Assembly (NCBI GenBank): GCA_902593945.1
Contig: CACJKA010000010.1
Location: 1 to 44,631, forward strand
DNA length: 44,631 bases
Reading direction: 5' to 3'
DNA from: an uncultured Candidatus Poseidoniales archaeon
Lineage (GTDB): Archaea > Thermoplasmatota > Poseidoniia > Poseidoniales > Thalassarchaeaceae
The position numbers and the translations under genes are program-made. Each line of letters begins with the position of its first letter. The first letter of the stretch is position 1. Of this stretch, positions 24,248 through 42,618 are shown piece by piece. The notes under the pieces were generated by a model. The model was given only the letters and a program-made list of their open reading frames with translations. It was not told the origin of the DNA and did not search any database.

Positions 24248-25741
24248 ATGACACTCGGCAATAATGAGAAAAAAATGCTTCGTTGTATGCGTTCTAAACA
24301 AAAGCATGTTTGGACTCTTGAGGAGTTATTAGAAATCACACATTGGAAGGATCAAGTTCACGTTGCAGGTGCAGGTAAATCTCTAGATGAAAATGGATTT
24401 GTAGAAACAATTGAGAAACACATGAAATTTGTCACATTAGGTTCTGAAGGACTTAAGGCTAGTGAAAATGGTTTACTCGAGAAAAGAATTTGGGATTGGA
24501 TTATTTCACAAACAGAGGAAAAAAGAACAATGAACGAATTATTCAATGCAGGTTTTGAAAGACATGAAGCGGGTCCTGGAATAGGCCTATTGAAATCAAT
24601 AGGTATATCTATTGAAAAAGGAATTTTTACTTTTGATAATGAGGAAGATATTACGGAGATAATTTCTGAACGTGCTAACTTTATTGGGGAAATATCTGAA
24701 GAAAAAAAGGATTTTAATAATTTAGAGAAGGAATTAGTTGAACATTTCTCTGGAAGAAAGAATTTGATTAATATCGAAGAATACATCGTAAGAGAATGGA
24801 AACTTACCGTAAAAGGAATAGAGGTTCCAGATAAAGAATTGGAGGAAGTTGAACTTGTTGGAGAAATTACACCAGAATTTTTACAAAAAGAAGGATGGGA
24901 AAATGCATCTTACAAGGAATTTGATGTTAATGCAGACACCCCTATACCAGTTGGAGGAAGGCCTCATCCGATGCAATCACTAATTGAAAGAATAAGATCG
25001 GTTTTCCTAGAGATGGGTTTTTCGGAAATAGAAGGTAACTATGTCCAATCAGCAGGTTGGAATATGGATGCTCTGTTTATCCCTCAATCGCACCCAGCAA
25101 GAACTATGCAAGACACATTTTATCTAGATGAGCCAGAGAAAATAGATATTCCAGATGAAATGTTAGATCTATGGGCATCAGTTCATGAAAACGGGCATGA
25201 TACTGGTAGTTTGGGTTGGGGTTCAGAATTTGATAAAGAAGAAGCAAAGAAAGGACTGCTGAGGACTCATACAACTGTAAACACTGTGAAATATATCGCA
25301 GAAAACCCAGTAAACCCTTCACGCGTATTTGGGATTGGAAGAGTCTTTAGACAAGAAACAATAGATAGAACACACCTGCCCGAGTTTCATCAAATAGAGG
25401 GAATAATTCACGAACCAAATGCAAGCCTACCTATGTTAATCTCAACATTGAAGACTTTCTATTCAAAAATGGGTTACCCTGATGTTAGAGTTAGACCAGC
25501 ATATTTCCCATACACAGAACCGAGTGTGGAAGTAGAGGTTTACTGGAGAGGAAAGTGGTTGGAACTCGGAGGAGCTGGTATCTTCCGCCCGGAAGTAACA
25601 GAGCCACTGGGTAGTGAATGGCCAGTATGCGCATGGGGAATGGGGCTAGAGAGACTAGCTATGCTAGTTCTGGAGTTAGACGATATCCGTGAACTTTACC
25701 AACCAGACTTGGAACGCTTGAGTCGGATGCCAATCCTCTAA
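24248..25741 (+). CDS. pheS: Phenylalanyl-tRNA synthetase alpha subunit
   Basis: Class II aminoacyl-tRNA synthetase, 497 residues, the usual length of archaeal PheS. A strong SD (AGGAGGGAG) precedes ATG 24248. An N-terminal tandem winged-helix region (MRSKQKHVWTLEELLEITHW onward) is followed by the catalytic core. This has motif 1 (HPMQSLIERIRSVFLEMGF), motif 2 (RVFGIGRVFRQETIDRTHLPEFHQIEG) and motif 3 (GMGLERLAML). WLELGGAGIFRPEV contains the Phe-site loop. No pheT is adjacent within the window, so alpha and beta subunits are encoded apart. The last 83 bp overlap the convergent YHYH-protein gene. Confidence 0.96.
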   Translation: MTLGNNEKKMLRCMRSKQKHVWTLEELLEITHWKDQVHVAGAGKSLDENGFVETIEKHMKFVTLGSEGLKASENGLLEKRIWDWIISQTEEKRTMNELFNAGFERHEAGPGIGLLKSIGISIEKGIFTFDNEEDITEIISERANFIGEISEEKKDFNNLEKELVEHFSGRKNLINIEEYIVREWKLTVKGIEVPDKELEEVELVGEITPEFLQKEGWENASYKEFDVNADTPIPVGGRPHPMQSLIERIRSVFLEMGFSEIEGNYVQSAGWNMDALFIPQSHPARTMQDTFYLDEPEKIDIPDEMLDLWASVHENGHDTGSLGWGSEFDKEEAKKGLLRTHTTVNTVKYIAENPVNPSRVFGIGRVFRQETIDRTHLPEFHQIEGIIHEPNASLPMLISTLKTFYSKMGYPDVRVRPAYFPYTEPSVEVEVYWRGKWLELGGAGIFRPEVTEPLGSEWPVCAWGMGLERLAMLVLELDDIRELYQPDLERLSRMPIL

Positions 25742-27785
25742 GAGAATATCTACTGACTGTAGCAAGCATCAACAATGAAATCAAAATCAGTCCACTATTA
25801 GGAGGATTCTTTAGCCAAGGTATGGCAATTAATCCACCTTCAGATGACTGTCCTCCCGGTGGCCCTCCGCCACCACATCCATCAGGAGGAGGGCCTATTC
25901 CAGGACCCCAAGTATCTCCATGCCCGGCACAAGGATCGTCATCATCATCGCCACTTTCATCAGATGAGGGAAGTTCTCCTGCGTAACAATTTATGAAGTA
26001 GGGGAAACCAATTCCTCCTTCTCCATTAACCATAGTAGTATGGTAATGATACATACCCTCTGGCCAATCAGGAGTTGCGCTAAATATTCCATTACAAGCA
26101 TCTAATGTCCCGAGACCTTGAACATAGTCATAGTCATCTATTCCTCCGGACCCATCAGCTCCTTCTTTGAGTCTATATGAGGAGGTCATTTCAACTACCT
26201 CTCCATCATCATTCCAGCCAGTATATCCGTATATTGAATATCCATCTAATGCAAATCCTACTATCTTTGAATGTGTACTCAAGGTTCTTTGAGATTCTAA
26301 ATTGTAGTCATACATTGTTTCTCCTTCTTCAGCATGCCAATGTATGCAATTAGAATCTGCATGATAATGGTAAATTCCTCCAGGCCCTGAGTGACCATGG
26401 CAAACACCAAGATCGACTGGTTGTTCACCTTCTTCTTGCTCATAAGCGCCTTCTTCTAGAGCCACTGCATCTCCTCCAGGGCCATCTTCGGGACCATAAA
26501 TTGCCACGCCGGTTACAGAAAAGGCAATTGTGCCCCTAATTGGTGCCATAACACAGCCATCAGAAGAAACTGAGGGATTACATTCGGGATCATCAGTTGG
26601 AGTTAATGGTATTGTGTAGGTATCAGATTGTGCACTCGCACAACAGCCTAAAGTTGATTCAAAGTCATGATTAGGTAGGCCGTTTGTACTAATTGTAATA
26701 TTGCCATCTTCAATTATAAAACTCAAGTCACACATATGGTTTTCTTGCTCATCGGTAGTATAATCATCAACAACAGGTACTTGTTCCTCATCACAAAGTA
26801 AGACTCTCGACCACCACCCAGAACTACCAGTTTCTGGATCTGAATCATCATACTCACAACTACCATCATCTTGTGTAGCGTTACTATCATAATTCATAGC
26901 TTGAGGATCCATACAACCCATTACTGGTTCTTCATCATATTCACAACTGCCATCATCTTCAGTAGCAGCAGAATTGTAATTATTTGCTTCTGAGTCTGTA
27001 CAACCACTTACCGGCGCCTGGTCATATTCGCAACTGCCATCATCATTTGTAGCATTAATATTGTAATTATTTGCTTCTGAGTCTGTACAACCCATTATAG
27101 GTTCACTAACTGTAATAACAATTGTCTCTAAATCTGAGGAATCTTCCCATGTCCCACATTCTCCTATAATAGAGATAGAGATATTAGACTCAATCTCAGA
27201 AGGCCCCCAAGAAAAATCACCATCTTCGGAAAATGGCAGATTTAGACTAAACTGACTAGCATCGCCATCTGACCAACCTAAATCGCAAGTACCAATATTA
27301 GGGTGAATTAATGTCCCATTTATTGAAACTATATCTCCGCGAATAATACTAATTTCATTATCATCTACGATAATAATTGTAGGATCTTCATATGGATAAT
27401 GGACTAAAAATGTAGATGAGAGCCTTGATTCTTGCCCCAAAGAATCAGTTATAATTATCTTCAAAGAATGGGAGCCGACTCCCACATCTGAAATATCGAT
27501 ACTAATTATTCCAGTATTATTCGGTGCAAGAAGCAACGATGAACCATCTAATGTGGCCTCAATGTCTAATGAAGACATGTCTTCATCACTAATAGATATG
27601 TGAAGAAATTCTACACTACCAATCAAGATACTATCTGGGACATCGGATTCAATTATGGGAGCAAGATTAATTCCCTCAGATTCAAAATCATAAAAAAGTC
27701 CACCAACTAATACACTACCGATCATTAATCCAGCCAAGAAAAGAGACCTGGCGGCGCCATCGTTGTCATCTTTTGAATTACGCAT
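25659..27785 (-). CDS. Exported YHYH-domain protein with CTD-type calcium-binding-like repeats
   Basis: 708 residues from ATG 27785; a longer frame begins at a TTG. An N-terminal hydrophobic helix (about residues 13-31) acts as signal or anchor. Residues about 230-320 carry three GCTDSEANNYN-x-DDGSCEYD repeats, a motif common in large marine exported proteins. The C-terminal half is a YHYH domain: GGIYHYHADSNCIHWHAE, then GFALDGYSIYGYTGW, then GMYHYHTT, with Cys residues for disulfides. Repeated His-Tyr-His pairs suggest metal binding, but the domain's function is not established. A C-terminal helix near 660-685 may anchor it. Last gene of the SCO/LVIVD cluster; its end overlaps pheS by 83 bp. 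Confidence 0.85.
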   Translation of the reverse strand: MRNSKDDNDGAARSLFLAGLMIGSVLVGGLFYDFESEGINLAPIIESDVPDSILIGSVEFLHISISDEDMSSLDIEATLDGSSLLLAPNNTGIISIDISDVGVGSHSLKIIITDSLGQESRLSSTFLVHYPYEDPTIIIVDDNEISIIRGDIVSINGTLIHPNIGTCDLGWSDGDASQFSLNLPFSEDGDFSWGPSEIESNISISIIGECGTWEDSSDLETIVITVSEPIMGCTDSEANNYNINATNDDGSCEYDQAPVSGCTDSEANNYNSAATEDDGSCEYDEEPVMGCMDPQAMNYDSNATQDDGSCEYDDSDPETGSSGWWSRVLLCDEEQVPVVDDYTTDEQENHMCDLSFIIEDGNITISTNGLPNHDFESTLGCCASAQSDTYTIPLTPTDDPECNPSVSSDGCVMAPIRGTIAFSVTGVAIYGPEDGPGGDAVALEEGAYEQEEGEQPVDLGVCHGHSGPGGIYHYHADSNCIHWHAEEGETMYDYNLESQRTLSTHSKIVGFALDGYSIYGYTGWNDDGEVVEMTSSYRLKEGADGSGGIDDYDYVQGLGTLDACNGIFSATPDWPEGMYHYHTTMVNGEGGIGFPYFINCYAGELPSSDESGDDDDDPCAGHGDTWGPGIGPPPDGCGGGGPPGGQSSEGGLIAIPWLKNPPNSGLILISLLMLATVSRYSLRGLASDSSVPSLVGKVHGYRLTPELA
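26849..27095 (-). repeat. Three tandem GCTD...DDGSCEYD coding repeats
   Basis: The minus-strand translation shows three copies of about 28 residues: GCTDSEANNYNINATNDDGS, GCTDSEANNYNSAATEDDGS and GCMDPQAMNYDSNATQDDGS, each followed by CEYD. Each copy has two cysteines and an acidic loop. The first two copies are almost identical, consistent with recent duplication. Confidence 0.9.
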
Positions 27786-27863
27786 AACATAATGTGTAAT
27801 GCAATTGCTATTAAACAATATCAGCAAAAAGTTTCGAAAAGGCGTAAAAGATTGTTTTCTTGA

Positions 27864-36001: not shown

Positions 36002-37162
36002 TTATTTATCACATAATCGGGAAATTAATTCTGACTTACGTCCAGATTCTTTTAACCCATGTAATACACATAATTCTTTGAGATCAGAGACCAAAAATTT
36101 GTTCAATACATCTTCATCAGGAATTGGAGAATTCGACATGTAGATTCTGATATTTAGGAGTAATTGCTTGGCTATTGCTTTAGCCATTAAGCAAGGGACA
36201 GCATTTCCTACCTGAGTATATTTATCTCTTTTACTTCCAGCGAATTTATATTTTTTAGGAAAGGTTTGAATCAAGGCACATTCATCTTCTGTTAACATTC
36301 TGACTTCAGTTTCCGAATAATAAACTAAAGCATCAGCACCATCTTTCCAATATCTTGCAGAAAGAGTATAGCATGGCTTATCAGGTTTAATCAACTGCCA
36401 ACCAAAACCTTTTCCATTCTTCTTGTTTCTTTCCTTTCTTCTCCTAAATCCATCAATCATTTTTTGTGTATGGAAATAATTGGCTGGAACTTCTTCTTTA
36501 GGCATTAATACAGTACCTGCCCCTAACCACTCTTTTACCGGTTCAATTCCAACATCTAATTTAGATTGACCTTTGGAATTTACATTTTCCCCATGAGTTT
36601 TTTTAGGATAAACTATTGGAAAGTTTTTATCATCTTTTGAGCCAATAAAAATCACTCTACGTCTTTTTTGTGGGACACCATAGTCAGCTGCAATTAGTTT
36701 CTCCCACCGCACATTATATCCTATTTTCTTAAATTCCTCTTTAATTATCTCAATAACTGCAAGCCCCTTTTCATTTTTCATAGTTAAGATACCAGGGACA
36801 TTTTCCATCACAAAGTAGTCTGGTTTAACTCCGTCAACCATTCTTATAAAATCCATGAATAATGAATTTCTAGGATCTTTGTTATCTCTCCTTCCAGCAC
36901 CGCTAAAACCTTGACAAGGAGGACCTCCACAGATTACAGAGACTTTTCTATCTCCTATTATGTCCTTCACTTGGTCAACAGAAACCTTTCTTATATCTCC
37001 GCAAATTGTTTCGGCTGTTTTATGATTATTAGCAAACGTCTCTGCATAAGTATCAATATGTTCGACGCCAAGAATTACTTCAAAACCCGCCATTTCGAAG
37101 CCTGTACTCATACCTCCAGCACCACAGAATAAATCTATGACTAAGGGTTTAGATGAGGCCAT
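36002..37162 (-). CDS. DNA (cytosine-5) methyltransferase with C-terminal SAP domain
   Basis: 386 residues. All main C5-methyltransferase motifs are present: I (DLFCGAGGMSTGFEMAGF), IV with catalytic Cys83 (GGPPCQGFSGAG), VI (ENVPG, residues 120-124), VIII (QKRRRVIFIGS) and X (YTQVGNAVP). The target-recognition region lies between VIII and the LSARYW segment. The last 35 residues (about 352-386: LVSDLKELCVLHGLKESGRK and on) read as a SAP DNA-binding domain, an unusual addition. It pairs with the nuclease gene 85 bp upstream as a type II restriction-modification system. By eye the gene is AT-rich, suggesting transfer. Confidence 0.92.
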   Translation of the reverse strand: MASSKPLVIDLFCGAGGMSTGFEMAGFEVILGVEHIDTYAETFANNHKTAETICGDIRKVSVDQVKDIIGDRKVSVICGGPPCQGFSGAGRRDNKDPRNSLFMDFIRMVDGVKPDYFVMENVPGILTMKNEKGLAVIEIIKEEFKKIGYNVRWEKLIAADYGVPQKRRRVIFIGSKDDKNFPIVYPKKTHGENVNSKGQSKLDVGIEPVKEWLGAGTVLMPKEEVPANYFHTQKMIDGFRRRKERNKKNGKGFGWQLIKPDKPCYTLSARYWKDGADALVYYSETEVRMLTEDECALIQTFPKKYKFAGSKRDKYTQVGNAVPCLMAKAIAKQLLLNIRIYMSNSPIPDEDVLNKFLVSDLKELCVLHGLKESGRKSELISRLCDK

Positions 37163-37247
37163 GTGCTATCTCTGAAATCCGTAGTTCTAAGTATTATCCA
37201 TCTCAAATTACTACAAAACAGAAGGAGAATTAGAGTTAATATAATGA

Positions 37248-38069
37248 TTAATCACCGGATAATTTCTCCCAGAATTTATTTGAAGCTCTCCAATTAGAAT
37301 ATGGACGATTGTTGGGTTTGTGAGGATCGTAGTACATACCACTGTCAAGGTATATTTCGCCAGTTTTTACATATTCAATCCATTCTATGAAAGTCAAAGG
37401 GGGGCCAATTATCATCTCAGTAAATACTTTTTTAGATTGAACAAATTTCACCCAACCATTTTGGCCAAATTTTCGATTAACACGTGGTTCTAGTGTGCTT
37501 CGATACCATTTAGCAAGTATAACATCATCATGTTGTAGACTACTGGGGATGATTTCTGATTTATTTTCTCTGCTATCTTTGGAATAATTATAGTAAATGG
37601 TTACATCTAAATTTGATTCTACAGTCATCTTCTGCCCATAATCATTGTATTGATGGACATTAGGAAATACTCTTCCAGACCAAGAATACCTATCTGGTCT
37701 ATCGGCTCTAGATTTTGTACCAAATATTTGTAAAAAAACATCGCGATTAGTGACATCGGGGTTATCAGTCTGCCAAAGATAATAATCAGCCGACCAATCT
37801 CCAAATGTTGTTTTTGATCTACCGGTTTTTAGTTCAAAACCTTGCCAATCTGCTGAATCATCTCGATTAGCACTAACGCCAAATTGTGATTCAAGCCAAT
37901 GTCCAATGCTCCCATCATGTTTTAATTCAGGAAGAATCTTTCCTTTAATACGTTCATTGAATATTTTTTCTAATTTTTCGAAAGATTGGCTATCGGTTTC
38001 TGAGTCCAAAACATCTCTTCTAATCATCTTAGAAATGAAATCATAAAAACTACGGAACGTTGCTAACAT
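37248..38069 (-). CDS. MvaI/BcnI-like type II restriction endonuclease
   Basis: 273 residues. The motif GHWLESQFGVSANRDDSADW followed by GFELKTG matches MvaI/BcnI-type monomeric nucleases, with a likely active site of Asp74, Glu79-x-Lys81 (and Glu60 upstream). Family members cut CCWGG or CCSGG. The specificity here cannot be read from sequence; a C5-methyltransferase partner would suit a CCNGG-like site. It is encoded upstream of the methyltransferase on the same strand, so the nuclease would be transcribed first. Confidence 0.8.
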   Translation of the reverse strand: MLATFRSFYDFISKMIRRDVLDSETDSQSFEKLEKIFNERIKGKILPELKHDGSIGHWLESQFGVSANRDDSADWQGFELKTGRSKTTFGDWSADYYLWQTDNPDVTNRDVFLQIFGTKSRADRPDRYSWSGRVFPNVHQYNDYGQKMTVESNLDVTIYYNYSKDSRENKSEIIPSSLQHDDVILAKWYRSTLEPRVNRKFGQNGWVKFVQSKKVFTEMIIGPPLTFIEWIEYVKTGEIYLDSGMYYDPHKPNNRPYSNWRASNKFWEKLSGD

Positions 38070-41046: not shown

Positions 41047-42618
41047 GTGAATACAGCGATAATTTGGTTTAGAAAAATAATCAGAATACACGATAACCCC
41101 ATGTTAATATGGGCAGAATCTTCTCAAGAAATAGATTCTATAATCCCAATTTACATTATTGATGAAAATTGGAGTCTCAATCATGAAAATAATATAGGTG
41201 TAAATCGATTAAATTTTCTTTATGATTCTCTATTAGATTTAGACAAAAATCTTAAAGAAAGATACGGGACAAAATTGCTAATTTGTTCTGGAGATTCTAG
41301 TGAAGTAATAGAATCAATCATAGAAGGAACAGAGCAGGGAATAAGTTCACTATTGACAGATTACTGCTCAGAACCTAAAAGTAGAGACGATGTAGGTTAT
41401 ATAATTGAAAATCTAATCACTAGAGAAGTCAATACAAAAGTATTTCCAGCAGTAAGTACCATATTAGATATTGAAAAAATCACTCAAATGAAACACTTCA
41501 AAGCACCTAAGTCGACTAAAAATATGGAAAAAATATTCGAAGAGAACCTTATAATTAGCCCATCTGGTCACTTATTGGATGGAGATCTTCCAGAACCTAA
41601 GAATATTCATTCTGAACCATTGATTGTAGAGTCAATTATTCGGAGTGAACAATTCTCAAAATTTTATATTTCGGTCGAAGAACTTCGGAAAAAGAATTAT
41701 CAATTAAGATTAGAAAAAGGATTTGAGAAATCGTATTTTCTCGGAGGAGAAACAGAAGCGTTAAGAAGACTTAAGGAAAAAATAACTGAAAGGCCTGATT
41801 TTGTTAATAATTTCAGGAAGCCATCCACTTATTCTACGAACAATATAGAAAACCCAATGGAACCGACAACCACAGGATTATCACCATACATTAGCAATGG
41901 ATGTCTATCTGTCAGACTAGTATGGAACGAATGTGCGAAGTTAAGAGATGTAAATCAATATACAAAACCTCCAGAATCACTACATGGCCAACTGATGTTT
42001 AGAGAGATGTTTTACTTATTATCTCGAATTGTCGAAAATTGGGAAGATGATTTAGATAACTCAAACTGTAAACCAATAAAATGGGATGATTATGATGGGG
42101 AAAAAATCAGAGCATGGGAAACGGGAGTCACGGGGTTCCCTTACATAGATGCGATGATGAGGCAGCTCGATGCAACTGGTTGGATGCATCACCTAGGCAG
42201 GCATGCTGTATCTTGCTTCTTAACTAGGGGCCAGTTATGGCAAAATTGGAAACATGGTCGAGATATATTTGAGAGGAAATTAGTTGATGCTGACTGGGCA
42301 GTAAATAATGGAAATTGGCTCTGGTTAGCAGGAGTAGCTCCATTTTCAATGCCCTACTACAGAGTGTACAACCCATGTCCTGATTCGAAGTCAAGTTTGA
42401 ATGTAGAGACTAAGGAGGCCAGTTTTGTCAGGCATTGGATACCAGAACTATCATTATATCCGTCAAAATACATCTTCGAACCGCATTTGGCTCCTTTGGA
42501 AATACAAAAATTGTCAAATTGTATAATTGGAGAGGATTATCCTTTCCCAATTATTAATAGAAAGGTTTCTCGGAAAGAAAATATATCTAAATTCAAAGAA
42601 AACCTTCGAAAATTGTAA
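41047..42618 (+). CDS. Photolyase/cryptochrome with (6-4)-photolyase/animal-cryptochrome signature
   Basis: 523 residues from a GTG supported by AGGAG 8 nt upstream. Flavin- and light-dependent DNA repair or signalling enzyme. The N-terminal alpha/beta domain (TAIIWFRKIIRIHDNP) is followed by the FAD-binding helical domain: TTTGLSPYISNGCLS, then ESLHGQLMFREMFY, then WETGVTGFPYIDAMMRQL. The active-site helix is GWMHHLGRHAVSCFLTRG with His382 and His386, equivalent to the two catalytic histidines of (6-4) photolyases. CPD photolyases have MHNR-x-RM here instead. DADWAVNNGNWLWLAG also matches the (6-4)/CRY group. A role in repair of UV (6-4) photoproducts in surface water is likely. Confidence 0.93.
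   Translation: MNTAIIWFRKIIRIHDNPMLIWAESSQEIDSIIPIYIIDENWSLNHENNIGVNRLNFLYDSLLDLDKNLKERYGTKLLICSGDSSEVIESIIEGTEQGISSLLTDYCSEPKSRDDVGYIIENLITREVNTKVFPAVSTILDIEKITQMKHFKAPKSTKNMEKIFEENLIISPSGHLLDGDLPEPKNIHSEPLIVESIIRSEQFSKFYISVEELRKKNYQLRLEKGFEKSYFLGGETEALRRLKEKITERPDFVNNFRKPSTYSTNNIENPMEPTTTGLSPYISNGCLSVRLVWNECAKLRDVNQYTKPPESLHGQLMFREMFYLLSRIVENWEDDLDNSNCKPIKWDDYDGEKIRAWETGVTGFPYIDAMMRQLDATGWMHHLGRHAVSCFLTRGQLWQNWKHGRDIFERKLVDADWAVNNGNWLWLAGVAPFSMPYYRVYNPCPDSKSSLNVETKEASFVRHWIPELSLYPSKYIFEPHLAPLEIQKLSNCIIGEDYPFPIINRKVSRKENISKFKENLRKL

Follow-up and report, generated by a model that had tools for sequence, protein, structure and literature searches.

A Candidate (6-4) Photolyase of the Eukaryotic Type in Poseidoniia, a Class of Archaea from Sunlit Seawater

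The window analysed here (44,631 nucleotides over its whole length) is one contig of the assembly of a Candidatus Poseidoniales archaeon of Marine Group II (35 contigs, 1.2 Mb, 65% complete), the family of which, denoted f1, we take to be MGIIb. It carries a gene of the (6-4)-photolyase/animal-cryptochrome type, the features of which are collated in Table 1. A Shine-Dalgarno-like GGAGAG is located about 8 bases upstream of the GTG start, and the encoded protein stops about six residues past the FAD-binding domain, without a C-terminal tail of the kind found in animal cryptochromes (CRYs). The gene is solitary; its two neighbours, which lie on the opposite strand, encode an S15 X-Pro dipeptidyl-peptidase and an MscS-type channel. 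A restriction-modification pair, consisting of a C5-cytosine methylase with a SAP domain and an LlaMI/MvaI-type restriction endonuclease, lies near the photolyase gene (36002-38069, minus strand), and a large YHYH-domain protein is encoded at 25659-27827 (minus strand), with LVIVD-repeat proteins nearby.

Table 1. Features of the photolyase-type gene and its product (positions in the window; residues numbered in the window protein).
Feature	Position	Strand	Evidence
(6-4)-photolyase/animal-cryptochrome-type gene, 523 aa	41047..42618	+	GTG to TAA, uninterrupted ORF
DNA_photolyase PF00875, N-terminal antenna-binding domain, residues 4-166	41056..41544	+	Pfam E 1.4e-19
K258 (Drosophila K246), lesion pocket	41818..41820	+	Lys in all 38 archaeal sequences; Glu, Gln or Pro in CPD enzymes
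Clade-specific 5-residue insertion, residues 264-268, shortly C-terminal to K258	41836..41850	+	alignment
FAD_binding_7 PF03441, C-terminal FAD-binding domain, residues 314-517	41986..42597	+	Pfam E 1.1e-61
F318 in place of pocket Trp (Drosophila W302; E. coli W277 by alignment)	41998..42000	+	F in 37/37 readable archaeal sequences
W346, distal Trp of triad	42082..42084	+	alignment
HHLGRHAVSCFLTRG helix, residues 381-395, with H382 and H386 (Drosophila H365/H369)	42187..42231	+	alignment
WQNW: W398, fourth Trp of tetrad; W401, medial Trp	42238..42249	+	alignment
NNGNWLW: N420, facing flavin N5; W424, proximal Trp; W426, lesion-pocket Trp	42304..42324	+	alignment
Y441 (Drosophila Y423), lesion pocket	42367..42369	+	alignment; F in CPD enzymes
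Clade-specific 4-residue insertion, residues 451-454	42397..42408	+	alignment

The fragmentary state of the host assembly could be read as favouring contamination of a metagenome bin by eukaryotic plankton. This explanation is refuted by the recurrence of the gene in 54 of the 340 Poseidoniia genomes and on contigs of three isolates (AG-457-A01, AG-422-I18, AH-287-M04), the names of which look like those of single-cell genomes. Several other genomes carry the S15 peptidase neighbour with 92-97% identity, the GC3 of the gene (0.28) is inside the range of the window genes (0.25-0.36), and the Shine-Dalgarno-like motif and uninterrupted reading frame described above point the same way.

Class membership was assessed by similarity, phylogeny and structure. 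When the protein was compared with solved structures by phmmer, most members of the (6-4)/animal-CRY group scored 281-305 bits, versus 143 bits for class III, 126 for DASH, 118 for the E. coli class I CPD photolyase and 113 for plant CRY, so that by these scores its membership of the group is far above chance. An AlphaFold2 model (mean pLDDT 76.6, pTM 0.84; poorly resolved at residues 421-454) was used in a structure search, in which the best 50 PDB matches were all (6-4) photolyases or animal CRYs, headed by the Drosophila (6-4) photolyase with lesion DNA. Maximum-likelihood trees (LG+C20) were calculated with reference sequences taken as chains from PDB alignments; the Drosophila (6-4) reference is 3cvx, an H369M mutant, which owes its Met at residue 369 to this mutation. 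The archaeal sequences formed a single clade (100/99-100). This clade was grouped with the eukaryotic (6-4)/CRY sequences at 100/99 and 100/100 in two trees, and at 96/82 once FeS-BCP PhrB and class II sequences, both with very long branches, had been added. The protein is thus placed outside CPD class I and the FeS-BCP photolyases, in line with the earlier note, which had proposed an archaeal photolyase with a (6-4)/animal-cryptochrome active site.

The other classes were set aside individually. No similarity to FeS-BCP enzymes was detectable by BLASTP (best E 0.16), which rules that class out; none of the four FeS-cluster cysteines was found at the aligned positions, in an alignment that is itself unreliable. 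The protein lacks the Asn/Met of CPD classes I and III at the catalytic positions and was not placed with the E. coli and Agrobacterium enzymes in the tree. It scores 176 bits with the DASH model (NCBIfam TIGR02765, cut-off 317) and has W426 where DASH cryptochromes have Tyr (the W409 position of Drosophila), and an animal CRY proper is disfavoured by the missing signalling tail.

Residue invariance was scored across 38 archaeal sequences from three families. The residues K258, Q315, H382, H386, N420, W426 and Y441 (Drosophila K246, Q299, H365, H369, N403, W409 and Y423, respectively) and the tryptophans W346, W398, W401 and W424 (W330, W381, W384 and W407) are identical in all 38; the functional roles at these positions are assumed from the Drosophila structure. 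In the same alignment, CPD enzymes have Asn/Met at the histidine positions, Glu at Q299 and Phe at Y423, and the CPD class I/III references have Leu/Ile at the position of the fourth tryptophan. Both catalytic histidines of (6-4) photolyases, which the earlier note had read from the HHLGRHAVSCFLTRG helix, are therefore present where described and conserved throughout the clade. The tryptophan triad next to FAD, for which a check had been proposed, was also found, and it extends to a tetrad (W424/W401/W346/W398). The DADWAVNNGNW motif (residues 414-424), cited in the same note as a mark of the group, does have its nearest counterpart in the Arabidopsis enzyme (DSDWAINNGNW); since E. coli PhrB carries DGDLAANNGGW, the motif does not discriminate the class on its own. 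The histidine pair is likewise retained by mouse CRY2, for which DNA repair is not known, so the pair is a mark of the group and not of repair activity.

Several departures are fixed in the archaeal clade. The pocket position occupied by F318 is Trp in every class sampled except plant CRY; since nearly all photolyase classes share this tryptophan, it does not define the (6-4)/animal-CRY group, and the position counts as a variable one. Both insertions are placed close to the active site by the alignment, and the second, which follows Y441, disrupts the near-universal K-x-D-x-x-G loop of the family. Together, F318 and the remodelled loop could have shifted the substrate preference. As a natural variant of the pocket tryptophan, F318 may be of use for mechanistic work.

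With the eukaryotic (6-4) photolyases (Drosophila RE11660p/2wb2, Arabidopsis 3fy4, Chlamydomonas CraCRY 5zm0), the archaeal proteins share the fold, the H365/H369 pair, K246, Q299, W409, Y423, N403, the tetrad positions and a one-residue TRG insertion after the histidine helix. They differ from them in being only 35-36% identical, in forming a separate clade, in the W302-to-Phe exchange, in the 5- and 4-residue insertions and in A-to-G and A-to-S changes within the histidine helix. The animal CRYs (mouse CRY2, pigeon CRY4, Drosophila CRY) belong to the same superclade and have the tetrad and, in part, the histidine helix in common with the archaeal protein, which differs in its missing tail and in retaining the K246 and Y423 residues that are altered in several CRYs. 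The FeS-BCP/prokaryotic (6-4) photolyases (PhrB 4dja, RsCryB 3zxs, SePhrB), defined as a separate prokaryotic 6-4 group in PMC9178010, have the same lesion specificity as that predicted for the archaeal clade.

The main prokaryotic precedent of the eukaryotic type is provided by the (6-4) photolyases of Gloeobacter (WP_011141747.1, WP_023172734.1), which have the histidine and the tryptophan tetrad and were described as the only known prokaryotic members of the (6-4)/animal-CRY group in a study that excluded incomplete genomes of metagenomic origin and judged its archaeal sequences uninformative (PMC7560933). They are 50-56% identical to eukaryotic enzymes and stand near those of algae; judged by these published figures, the archaeal clade lies much farther from the eukaryotic enzymes. 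Whether the Gloeobacter genes were transferred from or to eukaryotes is a point on which papers disagree (PMC7560933). In a 2022 survey (PMC9498864), both a 6-4 and a CPDIII photolyase are recorded for a 'Euryarchaeota archaeon', giving this genome two CPF genes, so that an archaeal member as such is not new. That 6-4 enzyme probably belongs to the present Poseidoniia clade; in the main-text passages of the survey it is a single entry, given without clade, placement, spread or residue analysis. No description of the Poseidoniia clade, its placement or its differences was found in the literature searched (main texts, mostly from non-subscription journals).

Within the class, the gene has a wide but patchy distribution. 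Of the 54 genomes, which come from Marine Group II and another order, 38 belong to f1 (the family of the window), 13 to a second family (f2) and 3 to a third (f3, which belongs to an order other than the window's); 14 of the 25 genera are represented. As the genomes are not complete, all of these counts are minimum values. The copy in one genome (G008:C5:13428-14931) is broken into two separate matches, possibly through a frameshift or an assembly error. When 293 genomes of the phylum were sampled, no member at this similarity level was found outside Poseidoniia, nor was there one in 396 Bacteroidota, 251 Chloroflexota and 200 Bacillota. This absence refers to the groups just named, since Cyanobacteria, Pseudomonadota and Asgard archaea lie outside the bulk survey and the genome-collection scan reaches close relatives only. 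Among 247 Actinomycetota the sole match was NZLD01000026.1 (L042), from a public 'Micrococcales bacterium' bin, the neighbour genes of which are 92-96% identical to a Poseidoniales contig and thereby identify it as misbinned Poseidoniales DNA. Viral contigs, phages and plasmids yielded no member, although the viral scans, being pattern-based, are blunt. The initial trees suggested vertical descent from a Poseidoniia ancestor, a reading that was dropped when the f2 and f3 copies were found nested inside f1 in a larger tree. This nesting makes transfer between families inside the class likely, in agreement with what Rinke et al. stated on Poseidoniia photolyases generally (PMC6461757).

Taken together, these data make it probable that the gene product is a eukaryotic/animal-type (6-4) photolyase, which repairs UV-induced (6-4) photoproducts in Poseidoniia of sunlit seawater and belongs to a clade that is sister to the eukaryotic group and was moved among families by transfer within the class. 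The repair activity of the archaeal protein is a prediction from its residues. By the proposed mechanism, FAD would be photoreduced along W398-W346-W401-W424, from the outermost to the innermost tryptophan; the excited FADH- would give an electron to the (6-4) lesion, which would be flipped out and bound by K258, Q315, W426 and Y441; and the lesion would return to two pyrimidines with H382 as the proton donor. As the genome also encodes a class II-like CPD photolyase, it is the (6-4) lesions that still call for a repair enzyme. When the FO (8-HDF) antenna was considered, none of 40 genomes had a CofH match above the cut-off, and the one hit examined scored best as MqnE.

Two other functions were weighed against (6-4) repair. 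A cryptochrome-like blue-light receptor, with photoreducible FAD and little or no DNA repair, would suit the tetrad, since such tetrads occur mainly in the (6-4)/animal-CRY group (PMC7560933), as well as the replacement of the pocket tryptophan, which plant CRY has also lost, and the histidine pair kept by mouse CRY2; it is considered unlikely, however, as all other pocket residues examined are fixed in 38/38 sequences, including the two at which animal CRYs vary (K246 and Y423), and the tail is missing. Still less credible is a pocket reshaped by the phenylalanine and the two insertions for CPD repair, or for dual CPD and (6-4) repair: these changes do adjoin the pocket in the alignment, but the H/H pair where CPD enzymes have N/M, Q315 and Y441 where they have Glu and Phe, respectively, and the CPD photolyase already present in the genome all argue against it. 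If (6-4) repair is indeed the function, the clade suggests a possible route by which archaea that rank among the most abundant in surface-water plankton mend the second main UV lesion.

The earlier note had also held that an archaeal member bears on the origin of the mostly eukaryotic group. This is fair, although these trees set neither the root nor the direction of transfer. The six eukaryotic references (five in one tree) cohere apart from the archaeal clade with 98-100 bootstrap support (100/98-99 without extra outgroups, 98/98 with FeS-BCP and class II). In AU tests, uniting the archaeal clade with the animals as a whole was rejected (p 0.004), and uniting it with the green lineage (0.10), the Drosophila (6-4) photolyase (0.16) or Drosophila CRY (0.07) was not; a sister relationship to the six sampled eukaryotic (6-4)/cryptochrome references is therefore favoured, not proved. 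An ancient transfer of a eukaryotic (6-4) photolyase, for example from a marine alga, into archaea, followed by fast divergence in Poseidoniia, is a plausible though tentative reading, the apparent sister position then being due to a long branch and few eukaryotes. It agrees with the long archaeal stem (0.93-1.5 changes per column), with the three unrejected unions, with the restriction of the clade to Poseidoniia among the genomes sampled and with the attribution of eukaryote-like genes in Gloeobacter to algal transfer (PMC7560933), but is opposed by the coherence of the eukaryotic sequences, by the rejected nesting with all animals and by an archaeal identity to full-length eukaryotic (6-4) photolyases and CRY2 of 34-36%, well below the published Gloeobacter values. 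That the Poseidoniia clade is instead the surviving prokaryotic sister of the entire eukaryotic group, and that eukaryotes acquired the gene from, or share its donor with, marine archaea and not cyanobacteria or alphaproteobacteria, can be put forward only with considerable doubt. Standing outside the sampled eukaryotes, the archaeal clade would serve as a close outgroup that already has the tryptophan tetrad, and the tetrad may thus predate the eukaryotic group.

A second photolyase-like gene was observed in the same archaea (L030 1372-3123, on contig C9 of the window's own genome; also L018, L020, L067 and L072). Together with Bacteroidota genes (L053 4986-6473, L055) it forms a deep, long-branched clade of its own. 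It has F/A at the catalytic pair and Met at the W409 position, lacks Trp at two triad positions and scores above the cut-off of no NCBIfam class. In several Poseidoniia genomes (L013, L014, L043, L044, L047 and L058-L060), the (6-4)-type gene directly adjoins this second gene on the same strand.
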